A stretch of 64,000 nucleotides of DNA from Bacteroidales bacterium (GTDB taxonomy: Bacteria > Bacteroidota > Bacteroidia > Bacteroidales > F082). Location of the stretch: NCBI GenBank assembly GCA_017537965.1, contig JAFYJV010000011.1, positions 1 through 64,000 on the forward strand, read 5' to 3'. Under the pieces are notes generated by a model. That model did no database searches and was not told where the DNA came from. It saw only the letters and a list, made by a program, of their open reading frames with translations. The position numbers were made by a program, and so were the translations under genes. Positions 5,459 to 13,720 of this stretch are shown piece by piece (position 1 is the first letter of the stretch; every line of letters starts with the position of its first letter).

Positions 5459-7648
5459 TCAGAATTTCCCTATGATTTCCATTTTTAAGTCGGTCTTGGT
5501 TTTTTCTTGAAGAATGGTGATCCCGATTCTTGAATAGAGACTTAGACAACCGAACAGATTGATCTTGCCCAGCAAGTAGATCCTCGTCCCCATGCCACTC
5601 AAGCTGGGGATGCTGAATGAACCCCAAACATCGTTTTCATAGATGCTGATTCTGCTGTTGTAGTCGTCGCTTTCAAAGAGGGCATATCGGAGACTAAGGT
5701 AGTATGGCTTTCCTCTTGGTTTGTATGCGATATCCTGGCTGACGAGATAGCCATGGCTGTTGATGCAATCATCGCTGGCATATTGTGCAAATGATAGCTT
5801 GTTGCTGAGTTGTAGGTTACCCAAAACCGCATAGTTGACATGTAACTGATAGGTGCGTTTGGTGTAGAAGATGGGGCGGTGGGAGAATACATGGTCGTCA
5901 GCGGAGTTTTTCATCTTGGTCTTTGACTTGAATCGTAGCTGTATGGTGGCATCGTTGCTTATTTGATGCGACACTTTCAGTTGGTATTCTTGTCCCCAAG
6001 ATGGCGTGTAAACCTGGCTCGTCAACCATTTGAAACGGAAGAAGTCGGCGTGTGCGATGACATCCCAACCGGGTGCTGGGGCGAGTTGCAACCCGATATA
6101 ATAGCCTTCTTCAGCTTGGCCGCGACTGCTTTCCTTGATGGCACCGAGGAAGAGGTTTTGGTAACGGGTGCCATAGTTACGGTAGAGTAGGGTGAAGTTG
6201 ATGTATCCTGCCGGCTTGGCGGTCATGCCTAACAGTCCCGCGAACGCGGCGTTGTCGCTCATGGAAAGCTCGCCGAAAAAGACCGTTTTGGGAAGCTGCC
6301 ATCGGAAATCCAATCCCATGTTGGTGAGTTGATCGCCACGGAAGAAAAACTGGTTGTATTTTGAAGGTTTGGGCTCAAGTATGGAGCTGAGTCTTACATG
6401 GTAGGCGGTGGCTCCAATCTCCAGCTGTGGACTGATGTAGGTGAGGTGACCGCCCCAGACCTGTTGCCTTATGGTGTTTCGCTTCATCAGTTCTCCCAAT
6501 GTGCGATGGTAGCCGCTTTCTTGCAAGGCACTGACGAGTTCTTGCTCTTCAAGGTCGTCGGTCAAGGTGTCGGATTCAGTCAAGGTGGCGTCGATTTTTC
6601 GATATGAGTAAAAGGCGGTGAGTTGGAAGGTGTGGTATTGGAGGGTGGTGGCGGCACCACGGAAGAACTTCCCTTCGCCGGCGGAGGCCTTTGGCCGAAC
6701 GCCGGCGGCTCTTTTCATCACCGAGCTTCCACCGGATGCCTTGCCGAAACTCAGCCCCGTCCATAGCGTCATGCCCTGCCCGAAACTGAGTTGATAGTCG
6801 CCTAAGGCCAACTCTTTGATGCCACATGGCCCGTCAGTCATGTAAAAATGCGCCCCATAGAAGTCGAATCCTGGCGGTCGGTATTTCCTCACCGTTTCCC
6901 GTAGCGTGTCGCTGAGCGCCCCAAATAACAGTAGCTCTCCCGCGTCTTTTTCCATGGCAACGCCCGCCCTGAGTCTCGACCCATAGCGATAGTTGTATTT
7001 CAGTTGCATTTTCCATGGGTCTCCCAATTCGTAGGCGTTGGGTCTTGCCAACATCAATGAATCGGACGCATCCTCTTGTGTTTCGGAGTTGTCGAACTTG
7101 CGGGCCATGTTCACCGTCACCTGGTGCTTTCCTTTTGTGACGGCTTTGCTCAGGGTGACTCTCTCTTGTTCCATAATATGATCGTTCTTTCCAAAAAAGA
7201 CGATGGGTGCAAGGATGGCAATAGTGTGTTCGTCGAAGGCCTCGATCATCCTCAGCTCTTCGATGAAAAGCAGGTCGCCGAAGTATCTTCGGTATTGTCG
7301 GAGACTCTCCATTTGGAAATGGCTTAGCAGCCCCAATTCGCACAGCTTCGTCGCGGCCTCGCTGTTGAGGTTGACGGGACTTCCTCTCAGGTGTTCGTAT
7401 TCAATAAGTAGTTCTTCGACGGCATCGCTCGCCTCCTCGCCGTCATCCGGCTCGTCGGCGAGGGCTTCCGCCTCTTCGAACAGCCTTTGGTACAGAAACT
7501 CTATGTTGCCATAGACCCTCAAGCTGTCGGAGTAAGGTCTGAGGCTGTCCGAAGGGAAGGGGACGGACTCTTCGAATTGTCCGAATGCCATGGCTTCAAA
7601 ACCCATCAATAATATCAATACCCATCTCCGTCTCATATACTCTCTCAT
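5459..7648 (-). CDS. Helix-hairpin-helix N-terminal, outer-membrane beta-barrel-like protein
   Basis: 729 residues with a signal peptide (MRRRWVLILLMGFEAMAFG, cleaved before Q). Either ATG at 7648 or the one at 7636 could be used; the second gives a more normal signal peptide. After an acidic segment, residues ~80-150 hold ComEA-like helix-hairpin-helix repeats (PVNLNSEAATKLCELGLLS, then FGDLLFIEELRMIEAFDE). The remainder alternates aromatic and polar residues as in a large beta-barrel, and ends in FLQE/KMEIIGKF-like strands. Such proteins recur in Bacteroidota and are called helix-hairpin-helix domain proteins; their function is not established. It lies 21 bases downstream of the PorV/PorQ-like gene on the same strand, so the two probably form an operon. 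Confidence 0.75.
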   Translation of the reverse strand: MREYMRRRWVLILLMGFEAMAFGQFEESVPFPSDSLRPYSDSLRVYGNIEFLYQRLFEEAEALADEPDDGEEASDAVEELLIEYEHLRGSPVNLNSEAATKLCELGLLSHFQMESLRQYRRYFGDLLFIEELRMIEAFDEHTIAILAPIVFFGKNDHIMEQERVTLSKAVTKGKHQVTVNMARKFDNSETQEDASDSLMLARPNAYELGDPWKMQLKYNYRYGSRLRAGVAMEKDAGELLLFGALSDTLRETVRKYRPPGFDFYGAHFYMTDGPCGIKELALGDYQLSFGQGMTLWTGLSFGKASGGSSVMKRAAGVRPKASAGEGKFFRGAATTLQYHTFQLTAFYSYRKIDATLTESDTLTDDLEEQELVSALQESGYHRTLGELMKRNTIRQQVWGGHLTYISPQLEIGATAYHVRLSSILEPKPSKYNQFFFRGDQLTNMGLDFRWQLPKTVFFGELSMSDNAAFAGLLGMTAKPAGYINFTLLYRNYGTRYQNLFLGAIKESSRGQAEEGYYIGLQLAPAPGWDVIAHADFFRFKWLTSQVYTPSWGQEYQLKVSHQISNDATIQLRFKSKTKMKNSADDHVFSHRPIFYTKRTYQLHVNYAVLGNLQLSNKLSFAQYASDDCINSHGYLVSQDIAYKPRGKPYYLSLRYALFESDDYNSRISIYENDVWGSFSIPSLSGMGTRIYLLGKINLFGCLSLYSRIGITILQEKTKTDLKMEIIGKF

Positions 7649-7669
7649 TCTCCTCCTTCTGTCTTCTGA

Positions 7670-8497
7670 CTACTGTCTTTCGAATTCATAGTTAATTCCA
7701 ATCTGAACCGATGCTCCCAGCATCTGGTGCATCTGGGCCGCCACGTCCACCTTGAGATGTCTCATGGAGTATGCTGCACCGAAACTCAGGATGTCGGGGT
7801 TGTGTTGTATCCCAGCCCGAAGGCTGAATTGCTTGAGCAACAGGTATTCGAAGCCTCCGCTCAGGCGTACGCCTGAGCGGAGGCGGTCCTTCTCCACGTC
7901 AACCTGTACCACGAAATCGTCAACGCATTGGAAAGCCAATCCGAAACGCATCACCACGGGAAGCTGGTCGCCGTTGAGGGTGGCGGTCTTGACTGGGATA
8001 GGGTGAAAGATGCAGGCACCTGCGCGGAGCCGCTCCGTTAGCTGTGATTGCATCCCCAAGCTGATGCTGAACGCTCCTCGGTTGGGATACCCCTCACCCC
8101 AGTGCAATAGCAGATAGTCGGCGCTCAAGCCCAACTGAAGATACGGCCCGAATCCTCGGGCGTATGCCAACCCCAACCGGCTCTCGCTATATTGACCGCC
8201 ACCGAATTGCTGGACACTTACGCCGAAACAGCCCACGTTGGGCACCGACTTGATCGCCGCTCCCGCTTTGAAAGCAGTCTCGCGCAAGAGCCACTGGTTC
8301 TCGTAGTAAAGCCCGAGATGCCAACTGTTGAGAAAGGCCATTCCCGCTGGATTGTTCTGCAAGGACCAAACGCTGCGTTCGCAGACCGACGTCCGTCCCA
8401 TGGCGGCAGCTCTTCCTCCGCTCACTCGAAATAGGTCGGTCGCCCAAAGTGGATGCCGCAGCAACATCCATAACGCTATGAACAAGATTTTTTTCAT
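7670..8497 (-). CDS. PorV/PorQ-like outer-membrane beta-barrel protein
   Basis: 275 residues with signal peptide (MKKILFIALWMLLRHPLWA). The start of the mature protein reads like the PorV/PorQ/UPF0164 group: RVSGGRAAAMGRTSV followed by WSLQNNPAGMAFL, then regular amphipathic strands with glycines to the end. PorQ and PorV are accessory outer-membrane proteins of the type IX secretion system; this one is shorter than typical PorQ and could be another member of the FadL-like superfamily. It is first of a two-gene operon with the helix-hairpin-helix protein. A -7 box lies 17 bases upstream of the ATG. Confidence 0.7.
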   Translation of the reverse strand: MKKILFIALWMLLRHPLWATDLFRVSGGRAAAMGRTSVCERSVWSLQNNPAGMAFLNSWHLGLYYENQWLLRETAFKAGAAIKSVPNVGCFGVSVQQFGGGQYSESRLGLAYARGFGPYLQLGLSADYLLLHWGEGYPNRGAFSISLGMQSQLTERLRAGACIFHPIPVKTATLNGDQLPVVMRFGLAFQCVDDFVVQVDVEKDRLRSGVRLSGGFEYLLLKQFSLRAGIQHNPDILSFGAAYSMRHLKVDVAAQMHQMLGASVQIGINYEFERQ

Positions 8498-8648: not shown

Positions 8649-9149
8649 ATGACTTGGTTATTGATCATCTTGGCTTTCCTGCTTTCCCTTGTGGGTGTGG
8701 TGGGCGCCATCGTTCCAGGCATTGCCGGACCGCCATTCAGTTTCCTCGGACTGCTTGCCATGTCGTTCGTGCGTGGCATCGACTATTCCGTGGAGTTTTT
8801 GGTGGTCATGGGAATCATCGGTGCGGTGGTTTTTGTCCTCGACTATGTGGTGCCGATTTGGGGAACCAAGAAGCTGGGTGGCACCAAAGCAGGAGTTCGT
8901 GGCAGCACCATAGGACTAATCCTGGGCTTGCTCATCACGATCCTCTTTCCCATAGGATTCATCGCAATTCTCCTCGGACCATTTTTTGGCGCATATATCG
9001 GCGAGAAGACCAATGGAACTGACGATCATCTGGCTTGGCGTTCGGCGTTTGGAAGCTTCGTCGGATTTCTGACAGGCACGTTTCTCAAACTGGTCTATGC
9101 GGTCGTATGTATCTATTACATTGTCAAAGATTTAATAGGATTGATATGA
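8649..9149 (+). CDS. DUF456 family inner-membrane protein
   Basis: 166 residues, almost entirely hydrophobic, with about four to five transmembrane helices. The family signature IVPGIAGPPFSFLGLL near residue 20 and glycine-rich helical hairpins (GPFFGAYIGEK) identify DUF456, a small membrane family of unknown function. Its stop overlaps the transketolase N-terminal start by 4 bases (ATGA), so it heads an operon with the two transketolase genes. A link to pentose phosphate metabolism is suggested only by this position. Confidence 0.88.
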   Translation: MTWLLIILAFLLSLVGVVGAIVPGIAGPPFSFLGLLAMSFVRGIDYSVEFLVVMGIIGAVVFVLDYVVPIWGTKKLGGTKAGVRGSTIGLILGLLITILFPIGFIAILLGPFFGAYIGEKTNGTDDHLAWRSAFGSFVGFLTGTFLKLVYAVVCIYYIVKDLIGLI

Positions 9150-9949
9150 TTGATTTACATCGCGAGGCAAGACATATTCGCGAATTGATATTGAAGTCCC
9201 TCGCGGAAGCAGGGTCGGGACACACGGGCGGCTCGCTCGATCTGGTGGATGTCTTTACAGTCTTGTATTTTGACCACATGCGTCACGATCCAGCCCGTCC
9301 GAAATGGGAGGGCCGCGACAAGCTGATCTTGTCGATAGGTCACACGGCACCAGTGCTTTATGCTACGCTTGCTGCTGCTGGCTACTTCCCCGAGGAGGAG
9401 ATGATGACGCTCCGTAAGCTGGGCAGCCGTCTCCAAGGACATCCGAGCTATGCGTTTCAGCTGCCAGGCCTGGAGTCATGTTCCGGTTCTCTCGGACAAG
9501 GCCTCGGCGTGGCGTTGGGGATGGCACTGTCGGCCAAGATGGACGGTATGCCGAACAGAGTTTTCTGCGTCATGGGCGACGGCGAACAGCAGGAGGGAAG
9601 TGTATGGGAGTCGGCCATGGCAGCTGCCCATTACAAAGCGGACAACCTCTGTGCCATCATCGACCGCAACCGCCTCCAGATCGATGGTGGGACGGAACAG
9701 GTGATGGGTATCGATCCGCTGAAAGATAAATGGGTTGCCTTTGGATGGAATGCCATCGAGATCGACGGTCACGATTTCAGCCAGATAAAAACCGCCCTGA
9801 AAAGAGCCGATGAGACCAGCGGAAAGCCCACGGTGATCATCGCCGACACCATCATGGGCAAGGGAGTCCCGTCCATTGAAAACAACAACCAATGGCATGG
9901 GAAAGTCCCGTCTAAAGAGCAGCTGGAGCTGTTCTTGAAAGACCTATAA
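9146..9949 (+). CDS. Transketolase, N-terminal (thiamine diphosphate-binding) subunit
   Basis: 267 residues; the ATG at 9146 overlaps the DUF456 stop. Split transketolases of this size are common in Bacteroidota and Firmicutes. Visible motifs are SGHTGGSLD near the N terminus, the IGHTAP loop, GSLGQGLGVALGMA, and the ThDP/Mg motif GDGEQQEGSVWESA (from Gly144) ending at DRN. It moves two-carbon ketol units between sugar phosphates (xylulose-5-P, ribose-5-P, sedoheptulose-7-P, erythrose-4-P) and works with the C-terminal subunit, which begins 18 bases downstream. Confidence 0.95.
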   Translation: MIDLHREARHIRELILKSLAEAGSGHTGGSLDLVDVFTVLYFDHMRHDPARPKWEGRDKLILSIGHTAPVLYATLAAAGYFPEEEMMTLRKLGSRLQGHPSYAFQLPGLESCSGSLGQGLGVALGMALSAKMDGMPNRVFCVMGDGEQQEGSVWESAMAAAHYKADNLCAIIDRNRLQIDGGTEQVMGIDPLKDKWVAFGWNAIEIDGHDFSQIKTALKRADETSGKPTVIIADTIMGKGVPSIENNNQWHGKVPSKEQLELFLKDL

Positions 9950-9967: not shown

Positions 9968-11848
9968 ATGGAATACGAGAATAAAGGAAATAAGGCGACC
10001 AAACTGGGATTTGGTGAAGGCGTGCTGGAAGCGGCACGTCAAGATAAGCGTGTCGTCGGACTTGGAGCCGACATCACCGCCTCTGTGGGCATGGATCTCT
10101 TCAGGGATGCTTTCCCCGACAGGTTCTTCTCAATGGGCATTGCAGAACAAGACGCTGTCGCCGTGGCCTCGGGCATGGCGCTGAGTGGCAAGATCCCTGT
10201 TTTCAGCACATACGGGGTCTTTGCTGCCCATCGTGCCAATGACCAGATCCGTATCTCTGTTTGCTATAACAACGTACATGTCGTCATCGGAGGTGCCCAT
10301 GCCGGCGTATCGGTCGGCCCTGACGGCGCTACACATCAGGCGTTGGAAGACATTGCCGCGATGAGGGTGCTGCCCAACATGACGGTCATATCGCCTTGCG
10401 ACGCCACTCAAGCCAAAATTGCCACCATGAAGGCCATCACCGAACTTGACGGACCTGTGTATGTCCGTTTCGGACGTGAGCCAGTGCCAGACTTCACTGC
10501 CGAGGACCAGGATTTCGAGATAGGGAAGGCCCAGCTGATGAGAGAAGGTAGCGACATCACCCTTGTCGCCACAGGACATGAGGTCTGGGAGGCTCTTAAG
10601 GCAGCCCACATGCTTGAGCACATGGGTATTTCCACAAGGGTCGTCAACATGCATACCATCAAGCCTCTCGACGGTGACATCCTGAGAAAGGCAGCCGACG
10701 AGACCCGTATGATCTTCACCGTCGAGGAACACCAGGCCGTTGGCGGCCTGGGTGGTGCAGTGGCGGAATACCTCTCCGAATGCCATCCAATCCGAGTTTA
10801 CCGTATCGGCATGGAGGATTGCTTTGGCGAGTCGGGTCAGGCGTCGGCGTTGATGCACAAGTTCGGACTCGACTCGGCAGGCATCGTCAACCGAGTGTTG
10901 GAAGAGATCGCCAAAGACGACCTGTGTGTCTTTATCCCAAAGATGGACAAGCCTTTCTCCACTTATCCGAAGGGGCTGTATTGCTGCAAAGTGCTCTACG
11001 AAGGATATGACTATCACGACGATGCGTCCTTCGAGAACTGCTTCGACACGAGGGTTTACAATCACTATATCAGTTTCGGCAAACGTGGACAGGATGTCAG
11101 GGAGACGCTGGCCCGAGCCTTGCACGACCATTTTATTACGCATTCCTTGTATAAGTTACTCGACCAGTATGACGAGAAGATGGTCATCGGGGTCATGGGA
11201 GGACACGCCCGACGTCGCGACGATCCCCAATACCGTCAGATCGTCTATCTTAGCAAGAAACTCACCGAGATGGGGCGTCTGATGGTCACAGGAGGTGGCC
11301 CGGGTGCCATGGAGGCAACGCATCTGGGCGCTTACATGGCAGGCCGTCCCGATCATGAAGTGGAGGAAGCCCTGGCCATGATGATACCTTCTCCCACCTT
11401 CTGCGACGAGGGCTGGCTCCGCAGGTCCTTCGAAGTCATGGAACGTTTCCCGCTGACCACGGATTATCGAAGCCTCGCCATCCCGACATGGTATTATGGT
11501 CATGAGCCAACCGCGCCTTTTGCCACCGACATCGCCAAGTATTTCGACAACAGCGTCCGAGAGGATGGCATCGTGACAGTTGCCAAGGGAGGCATCGTCT
11601 ATACTCCAGGTAGTGCCGGCACCATGCAGGAGATCTTCCAGGATGCGGGTCAAAACCATTATGAGAGCGTGGGTTATGCCAGCCCGATGATCTTCATGGG
11701 CAAAGACTACTATACGAATTATATGCCCGCCTATGCGCTGCTTAAGGATCTAAGCGATCGGGGCATCTTCAAGAACATGATCCTCACCATTTCTGACGAC
11801 AACGATGAGATCATTGATGCCATCGTGCGGTTCAAGGAGGGACAATAA
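9968..11848 (+). CDS. Transketolase C-terminal subunit fused to a LOG-family (nucleotide hydrolase-like) domain
   Basis: 626 residues in one uninterrupted frame, twice the usual length of a transketolase C-terminal subunit (~310). Residues 1-316 are that subunit: GLGADITAS, MGIAEQDAVAVASGMAL, YVRFGREPVP, then VVNMHTIKPLD and FTVEEHQAVGGLGGA. From about residue 317 a second protein begins: FDTRVYNHYISFGKRGQD, VMGGHARRR (~410-418), TGGGPGAMEATHLGAYMAG (from 441), and TPGSAGTMQEIFQDA (546-560). These fit the Rossmann LOG/lysine-decarboxylase-like family, in which GGGPGAM and PGGxGTxxE bind a nucleotide; here the second motif is PGSAGT, as in one long LOG subgroup. Characterised LOG enzymes hydrolyse nucleoside monophosphates to base plus ribose-5-phosphate, a transketolase substrate. 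The domain's activity here is inferred. Confidence 0.88.
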   Translation: MEYENKGNKATKLGFGEGVLEAARQDKRVVGLGADITASVGMDLFRDAFPDRFFSMGIAEQDAVAVASGMALSGKIPVFSTYGVFAAHRANDQIRISVCYNNVHVVIGGAHAGVSVGPDGATHQALEDIAAMRVLPNMTVISPCDATQAKIATMKAITELDGPVYVRFGREPVPDFTAEDQDFEIGKAQLMREGSDITLVATGHEVWEALKAAHMLEHMGISTRVVNMHTIKPLDGDILRKAADETRMIFTVEEHQAVGGLGGAVAEYLSECHPIRVYRIGMEDCFGESGQASALMHKFGLDSAGIVNRVLEEIAKDDLCVFIPKMDKPFSTYPKGLYCCKVLYEGYDYHDDASFENCFDTRVYNHYISFGKRGQDVRETLARALHDHFITHSLYKLLDQYDEKMVIGVMGGHARRRDDPQYRQIVYLSKKLTEMGRLMVTGGGPGAMEATHLGAYMAGRPDHEVEEALAMMIPSPTFCDEGWLRRSFEVMERFPLTTDYRSLAIPTWYYGHEPTAPFATDIAKYFDNSVREDGIVTVAKGGIVYTPGSAGTMQEIFQDAGQNHYESVGYASPMIFMGKDYYTNYMPAYALLKDLSDRGIFKNMILTISDDNDEIIDAIVRFKEGQ

Positions 11849-11878: not shown

Positions 11879-13720
11879 ATGAAAAAAATACTATTTACTA
11901 TTGTTGCCCTGATGCTGTCGATGATGATGACGGCAGGCAATTTCGTGATGATCTCCTATTCGGGTCGTGCCGAATTGGAGCGCTTGTTCGACGATCCAAA
12001 TCTGACCGTGCATTTTTACACGGATTCGGAGGTTTATGCCACGGCAGGGCATTTCGATGCCTCTACAATGGTCTTGCTCGATAAGAACGCTTTCTCTGAA
12101 AACGAGACCTATTCCCTGGTGTATTGTCCTTTGTCAAATCAAAATTCTTATCTTGAAGAAAATCAAATTGATGCTATAATTCAATTAAAGGATTACTTTA
12201 TAGCAAAAGGCTCGGCGAAACCTTTCAAGAACGATGGCGCCGTGGCCATCTTCAACAAAGAGGCACGCCTGCCGCAACTCACTCGCGATTTCCCAACAGT
12301 GACAGAGGAAGATCCACGCATACGCGAGATGATGAATCAAGTGAACATGGATTCGCTGGAAGCTACCGTACAGCATCTTCAAGATCTTAACAGTCGTATT
12401 TGGAACTCCACCAACGCTTTCACTGCATCAGATTGGATCGCAGGTAGGATGGAGGCGCTAGGGTTGGAGGTGGAGCAACAAGCCTTCTACGCCAACACAT
12501 GGTTGGGCAGTGGCCAGGCTGCGCCGAACGTGATCGGCATTCAACGTGGCACGCTCTATCCCGACACCTACGTGGTCTGTGGAAGCCATTTCGATTCTTT
12601 CTCATGGGAATCCATGTATGGTAGTGGCAATGCTCCAGGTGCCGATGACAATGCCACGGGTGTTGCCAGTGTGCTCGAAAGTGCGAGAATCCTTACTCAA
12701 TATGAGTTTGAATATTCCATTGTTTATTGCGCATACGGCTGCGAGGAAATGGGCCTTTATGGCAGCGAGGCCTATGCATCCCGATGCCAACAACAAGGTA
12801 TGGACATCATCGGCTATTTCAACAATGACATGAACGGCTATCTCTATGGAGATCAGATACATATCGATTGCATCTATCCTAACAGTGTGGCACCCATCGG
12901 CAACTATTACATCAATGTAGGCAACGTCTATTTTCCGGAAATGCAAGTCCGTCACGTCAACTTCAACGAGGGCGACAGCGACCACACTTCCTTCAACAAC
13001 CACGGTTACATGGGCATCTATCCTTTTGAGGATTACCAAAACTACAGCCCTTATATCCATACTCCAAATGATTTGATCGGCAACAGTGTCAACAGTTGGG
13101 CCATGTCGCAGCGTTACTGCCAGATGAACATCGGATGCCTGGCGGAGATAGCCAATCCGATTGGAGAGACGCCTGTGGTGGAATGCAATCCTCCTTTGGA
13201 TTTTCAATTCCTTTTTCCGATTGACAGGGAGTTAAGTTATCTATATTTGTATTGGAGCGTTCCCGAGGAAGGTTCAACAGGAGAGCTTCTTCATTTCGAT
13301 GTTTATCGCGACAATTCAGTCATTGCAACTTTGGAGTATGAGGCTCCCAATATCCATTACGAATACTGGGACACCATTACTATCGGTGAGCAAGCGGAAT
13401 ATTTCATTATGGCGGTTTATAGCGATGGTTGTGAAGCATCTTCCGATACTTTGATCGGTGAAGGTCAATGGTACAGTGTGAATGAAATGGACGTGGATCA
13501 AGCTCTAATCTATCCCAACCCCGTGGAAGGTGAGCTGACTATCCAAGCAGAAGGCCTCCAGCGTGTGGTGATCTATAATGCGATGGGCCAGCAGGTGGCT
13601 TCTGTTGAAACAAAGGAATCGGAATGCACCCTGTCTATGGAGGCCTATCCCAAGGGACTATATACCATCCGATTGATTACCCGTGACGGGGTAGTCGCTC
13701 GCAGTGTGGTCTTGAAGTAA
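11879..13720 (+). CDS. M28-family zinc aminopeptidase with T9SS type A sorting domain
   Basis: 613 residues with signal peptide (MKKILFTIVALMLSMMMTAG). After an N-terminal region, the M28 catalytic domain (about 190-420) shows the expected metal ligands: His237 (CGSHFDS), Asp256 or Asp257 (GADDNATG), catalytic Glu289/Glu290 (CEEMGLYGSEA) and His369 (GDSDHTSF). A fibronectin-like stretch (about 440-535) comes next. The last ~75 residues are a T9SS sorting domain (LIYPNPVEGELTIQ, YNAMGQ, YPKGLYTIRL). It is thus a cell-surface or released exopeptidase for amino acid acquisition. It follows the transketolase fusion after 30 bases with no obvious promoter, so read-through is possible. Confidence 0.92.
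   Translation: MKKILFTIVALMLSMMMTAGNFVMISYSGRAELERLFDDPNLTVHFYTDSEVYATAGHFDASTMVLLDKNAFSENETYSLVYCPLSNQNSYLEENQIDAIIQLKDYFIAKGSAKPFKNDGAVAIFNKEARLPQLTRDFPTVTEEDPRIREMMNQVNMDSLEATVQHLQDLNSRIWNSTNAFTASDWIAGRMEALGLEVEQQAFYANTWLGSGQAAPNVIGIQRGTLYPDTYVVCGSHFDSFSWESMYGSGNAPGADDNATGVASVLESARILTQYEFEYSIVYCAYGCEEMGLYGSEAYASRCQQQGMDIIGYFNNDMNGYLYGDQIHIDCIYPNSVAPIGNYYINVGNVYFPEMQVRHVNFNEGDSDHTSFNNHGYMGIYPFEDYQNYSPYIHTPNDLIGNSVNSWAMSQRYCQMNIGCLAEIANPIGETPVVECNPPLDFQFLFPIDRELSYLYLYWSVPEEGSTGELLHFDVYRDNSVIATLEYEAPNIHYEYWDTITIGEQAEYFIMAVYSDGCEASSDTLIGEGQWYSVNEMDVDQALIYPNPVEGELTIQAEGLQRVVIYNAMGQQVASVETKESECTLSMEAYPKGLYTIRLITRDGVVARSVVLK

Follow-up and report, generated by a model that had tools for sequence, protein, structure and literature searches.

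Organization of the locus

The window, by which we mean the whole stretch of 64,000 nucleotides that was analysed, contains on its forward strand a unit that begins with the gene for a DUF456 membrane protein and continues with the two subunit genes of a split transketolase. The second of these subunits (TKC) is fused in frame to a Rossmann domain which resembles the LOG enzymes. The features are:

8649..9149, + strand: DUF456 membrane protein gene, first in the unit (PF04306, 110.7 bits)
9146..9949, + strand: TKN, N-terminal subunit of a split transketolase with predicted thiamine diphosphate binding (PF00456, 180.1 bits, and catalytic motifs)
9968..11848, + strand: fused gene TKC::LOG-like, a single open frame of 626 codons with one terminal stop
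9968..10915, + strand: transketolase C-terminal subunit part, residues 1-316 (PF02779, PF02780; closest solved chain 6yaj)
10880..10972, + strand: junction, residues 305-335 (omega higher than in either half)
10916..11845, + strand: LOG-like Rossmann domain, about residues 317-626 (structure matches, profile comparison, conserved columns)
11291..11311, + strand: GGGPGAM motif, residues 442-448 (translation, family alignment)
11558..11563, + strand: R531, the catalytic Arg of LOG, and E532, a Lys in LOG (profile alignment with LOGs)
11606..11632, + strand: PGSAGTMQE motif, residues 547-555, with T552, Q554 and the catalytic E555 (alignment)
11879-13720, + strand: M28 peptidase carrying a Por secretion tail, separated from the fused gene by 30 bases

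The start codon of TKN overlaps the 3′ end of the DUF456 gene (the PF00456 scan was begun at 9143, the ATG is at 9146), and on its other side TKN adjoins the fused gene as the gene of the partner subunit. A DUF456 gene of family c1 lies upstream in all 54 loci drawn except L111, which is on a short contig. The downstream genes differ in other species, and the M28 peptidase is therefore not part of the unit. Two genes of 729 and 275 aa (5459-8497 of the window, − strand) are divergent from the DUF456 operon and stay next to it in almost every locus drawn; the 275-aa gene has a weak match to outer-membrane barrels.

In the fused chain a complete split-transketolase C-terminal subunit is followed by an equally complete LOG-like Rossmann domain. 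One uninterrupted 626-codon frame with both halves complete had been described in the initial annotation, and translation as well as Pfam and profile matches bear this out; the motifs GGGPGAM and TPGSAGTMQE (residues 546-555) are also found at the residues given there. In the whole chain, PF02779 is matched at residues 10-171 with 135.6 bits (cut-off 27) and PF02780 at residues 186-306 with 111.6 bits (cut-off 25.9). The Pfam matches of the second domain are weak. SLOG (PF18306, residues 404-459) scores 24.5 bits against a cut-off of 26.3 in the whole chain and exactly the cut-off, 26.3 bits, when the domain is scanned alone. Lysine_decarbox (PF03641, residues 512-613) stays under its cut-off in the whole chain and reaches 19.8 against 27 with the domain alone.

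The transketolase half

Among solved structures, residues 5-310 best match the C-terminal chain of 6yaj (E 1.5e-87). We compared the positions of human transketolase E366, S345, H416, D424, R474, R318 and Q428, which we take to be the catalytic glutamate and the sugar-phosphate residues. The equivalents of the first five are kept in every fused row that has a letter there. At the position of R318, presumably a phosphate-binding residue, the fused protein has Lys 12, and a Lys is found in 36 of 36 fused rows; the position of Q428 is a His in the fused proteins. The TKN motif is present beside 36 of the 37 fused genes known from the genus. SIGH, QGHP, GDGE and WHGK occur in all 36 of these neighbours, GSGHTGG in 34 and NR.QIDG in 33.

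The split transketolase of Carboxydothermus hydrogenoformans (6yaj/6yak) likewise has separate N- and C-chains encoded by adjacent genes and forms an active alpha2-beta2 enzyme (PMC7661550). Unlike the fused protein, however, its C chain does not continue beyond the transketolase domain into a LOG-like extension, and it has Arg instead of Lys at the R318 position. Going by the families, the TKC half would have transketolase activity and would assemble with TKN in the same alpha2-beta2 manner.

Another transketolase pair of this genome, which is not fused, lies 64 kb further along the contig. Among the matches listed, at least 33 of the 37 fused genomes have a separate C-subunit paralogue, and thus the fused transketolase may not be the pathway enzyme. 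A further C-subunit-like paralogue of about 35% identity is found in G016, G021 and G101.

The LOG-like half

The initial annotation had called the second half a LOG-type domain, which stands as far as the fold and the catalytic residues are concerned. Residues ~317-626 give short matches to LOG structures (E 3e-9), and an hhalign comparison with nine classical LOGs gives a probability of 98.9. With the type II enzyme CgLOGII (Cg1261, 5wq3) the domain has in common the Rossmann fold, by profile alignment, and the catalytic Arg, Thr and Glu; R155, T175 and E178 of CgLOGII correspond to R531, T552 and E555 (PMC5379747). The agreement with LOG is not complete. The domain reads PGSxGTxxE where the LOG motif is PGGxGTxxE, and two base-binding positions differ, Lys156 of CgLOGII being replaced by E532 and Asp177 by Q554. 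It also has an extra N-terminal region and an extra stretch between the halves of the fold. In CgLOGII all activity is lost in R155A, T175A and E178A, and the alanine mutants of K156 and D177 are inactive or almost so (PMC5379747). With the PGS motif and the two changed base-binding positions, nucleotide hydrolysis by the LOG-like half stays putative.

These departures are family-wide and not specific to the fusion, since the residues R531, E532, S549, T552, Q554 and E555 occur without exception in the 72 standalone, the 37 fused and the 5 LOG-only sequences (Ser 549 in 72/72 standalone and 37/37 fused). The fused proteins moreover retain 69 of the 75 columns conserved in the 72 standalone proteins, and both halves keep their predicted main catalytic residues. 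Uncharacterised chains of the size of PpnN, which are presumably PpnN-like, align weakly (E 0.13-0.91) and have a Leu after the Arg and a Glu in place of Asp177. These positions thus vary among LOG-like enzymes and are alone no bar to activity.

The domain stays under the curated cut-offs of both TIGR00730 (LOG, 19.6 against 96.35 bits) and NF038390 (PpnN, 24.5 against 450 bits). PpnN is its best NCBIfam match (59 of 63 members, E <= 0.01), but the likeness consists of short stretches of the Rossmann core only, and the DUF4478 and DUF3412 domains of PpnN were absent from Pfam scans of the whole chain and of the domain alone. Judged by sequence, the LOG-like half is a member of a standalone Bacteroidota family and neither a proper LOG nor PpnN. 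DUF4478 and DUF3412 build the alarmone pocket of PpnN (PMC6717881). Control by (p)ppGpp, proposed earlier by analogy with PpnN, was set aside because Pfam finds neither domain in the fused chain. The genome itself contains two classical LOG genes above the Pfam cut-off and no PpnN at E <= 0.001. With the fused gene PADLOC gave no match and PHROGs a weak DprA-like match across the Rossmann motif.

In the standalone Bacteroidota family (L137-L212 and others) the same domain is not joined to a transketolase in any locus seen. Most of these proteins have an N-terminal extension of their own of about 45-70 residues, and in the fusion the transketolase takes its place. No neighbour family is common to more than 8 of 76 standalone loci, and gene context therefore lends no support to a link with sugar metabolism. 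Four standalone proteins from Bacteroidaceae/Prevotellaceae MAGs (L147, L149, L151 and L155) have a Lys-rich, hydrophobic start followed by a lipobox-like Cys; they thus look like lipoproteins, that is, exported members of a nucleotide-enzyme family.

Selection on the two halves

Omega values were calculated pairwise (NG86) among the 37 fused genes. As synonymous sites are near saturation among the 666 pairs (median pS about 0.7), only pairs with unsaturated synonymous sites were used, and these gave a median omega of 0.055 for the transketolase part (439 pairs), 0.068 for the LOG-like part (380 pairs) and 0.205 for residues 305-335 at the junction (5-95% 0.041-0.548; 424 pairs). Purifying selection acts on both halves, and constraint is weaker at the junction between them.

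Distribution of the fusion

Of the 99 genomes searched in the genus, ours among them, 37 contain the fused frame (one per species), at 78-100% identity and with zero internal stops. Absence from close relatives, which the initial annotation had named as evidence against the fusion, is not what we see: 36 further species of the genus have the frame. The match runs from residue 1-2 to 622-626 in 36 of the 37 frames and begins only at residue 30 in G081. A profile search found the LOG-like domain in 42 of the 99 genomes, fused in 37 and standing alone in five. Four public MAG contigs (L133-L136) also carry the fused frame; not all of them, at least not L133, are independent of the 37 genomes.

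At the order level, 20 of 393 genomes searched had a match and 17 of these show the LOG-like domain in short frames of 80-460 codons; at the phylum level this holds for 12 of 13 genomes with a match among 395 searched. Such frames are too short to hold both parts (the frame of L217 has 460 aa). In the long frames from outside the genus, L202 (673 aa), L219, L220, L222, L223 and L071, no transketolase sequence precedes the domain, and L165 (433 aa) has no transketolase motif, judged by the motif alone. Among the matches listed for 80 public loci, drawn from 423 relatives, 76 have both motifs in one frame; 72 of these are unfused and the four fused ones are all within, or near-identical to, the genus of the window. 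No TKC::LOG-like fusion was seen outside the genus among the matches listed for the sampled order, phylum and public loci. As far as these samples go, it seems to be restricted to the genus.

No description of a TKC::LOG-like fusion was found in the open-licence papers searched, in agreement with the initial annotation, and the available text of PMC10107265 and PMC5702140 gave no account of it. The two parts each belong to a known kind, and their fused architecture appears to be new to us.

History of the locus

The same locus occurs as DUF456-TKN-TKC::LOG (37 species), as DUF456-TKN-TKC (five close and seven more distant species) and as DUF456-LOG (five species). In the locus drawing DUF456 is upstream in 7 of 7 TKC-only species. 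G036, which belongs to another family, also has the unfused DUF456-TKN-TKC, which points to the unfused arrangement as the older one.

In a joint tree of TKN and TKC, rooted on G036 as a single distant outgroup, the earliest branches are those of the seven distant unfused species, and the five close unfused species fall within the fused clade (starred branches 98/93 and 99/97); the direction of change follows from this rooting. The tree of TKC only leaves the LOG-less species unplaced. The five LOG-only species group with the fused G078 and G081 in the tree of the LOG domain (starred, 100/98). In this tree the bootstrap had not settled (0.977), long outgroup branches met, and the outgroup was made up of 14 standalone sequences out of 72. 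A single loss of transketolase, as against two, was obtained in 38% of the bootstrap trees.

A sixth LOG-less case is G109 (L131, at the start of contig C40), in which the last 20 residues of TKC resemble the end of the LOG domain in the fused proteins, 14 of the 20 being identical to G055. A profile search found no LOG-like domain elsewhere in this draft. Here the LOG domain appears to have been removed by an in-frame deletion which left a C-terminal scar, in a gene that is broken over two contigs of a 71% complete draft and where a misassembly is possible. In the other loci, neither LOG remains beside unfused TKC nor TKC remains beside LOG-only genes were found above chance.

Both the trees and the order of the genes point to a single fusion in a DUF456-TKN-TKC operon, apparently followed by loss of the transketolase genes in five species and of the LOG domain in six. 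The simplest account would be that, after one fusion, LOG was lost at least twice and transketolase once or twice.

Possible function of the fused protein

We tentatively suggest that the chain is bifunctional and that a LOG-like hydrolase passes ribose 5-phosphate to the transketolase subunit to which it is joined. Residues 1-316 would pair with TKN, encoded upstream, into an alpha2-beta2 transketolase. The last 310 residues would act as a LOG-like nucleoside-monophosphate hydrolase and release ribose 5-phosphate, on which transketolase acts. Being joined, both enzymes would be equal in number and close together, and ribose 5-phosphate from nucleotide breakdown could enter the non-oxidative pentose phosphate pathway near the point of its release. 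Hydrolysis of nucleoside monophosphates by the LOG-like half and the importance of the closeness of the sites are what we infer here, and they are the weakest part of the proposal. The reaction of PpnN gives ribose 5-phosphate (PMC6717881, PMC10311079). For E. coli it has been argued that this product flows into the pentose phosphate pathway; levels of sedoheptulose 7-phosphate and erythrose 4-phosphate rise in the wild type and not in the ppnN mutant (PMC10311079). That the fused chain is a short cut of this kind, leading from the turnover of RNA and nucleotides over ribose 5-phosphate released beside the transketolase site to these two sugar phosphates, we consider rather doubtful.

Almost as likely as the hand-over of ribose 5-phosphate is that two enzymes with separate jobs came to lie on one chain, because the transketolase operon received a LOG-like gene at its end, in the matching frame. 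Such a joint would be tolerated and bring shared expression at most, with no metabolite handed over. The losses in both directions, including G109 with its 20-residue scar, fit this well and mean that a coupling is dispensable and that neither half needs the other. The weaker constraint on the junction than on the domains and the standalone life of the family elsewhere, without common neighbours, point the same way. On the other hand, one point change would split the halves and yet they are unsplit in 37 of 37 fused genomes, and the fusion is retained in 37 of the 48 genomes of the lineage (the others are 5 with LOG alone and 6 in which transketolase is left after LOG was apparently lost). This retention suggests some benefit.

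A role of the LOG-like domain as a nucleotide sensor, which would switch or scaffold the transketolase and bind its ligand but hardly hydrolyse it, is in our view unlikely. SLOG-type domains act as sensors elsewhere, and PGS instead of PGG as well as Glu and Gln at the two base-binding positions would suit such a role. A pure sensor, however, needs none of the catalytic Arg, Thr and Glu which are invariant throughout the standalone, fused and LOG-only sequences. Furthermore, the LOG-only species retain the domain without a transketolase to control, and the alarmone domains of PpnN are absent. Finally, an artefact of assembly or annotation is for practical purposes refuted: every fused sequence comes from a draft genome, and those with names are metagenome-assembled, but a frame that is free of internal stops in 37 genomes, each from a different species, and that has homologous junctions as well as low omega is not an assembly accident.

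A fused protein with both functions would make a hand-over from nucleotide degradation to transketolase directly testable in vitro, and with its fused, transketolase-only and LOG-only versions of one locus the genus supplies the natural comparisons. The LOG-like family, widespread in Bacteroidota, stands out in that its active site departs from the textbook motif. Within one uncultured group of gut bacteria the fusion has been kept in dozens of species, despite relatives which have dropped either part.
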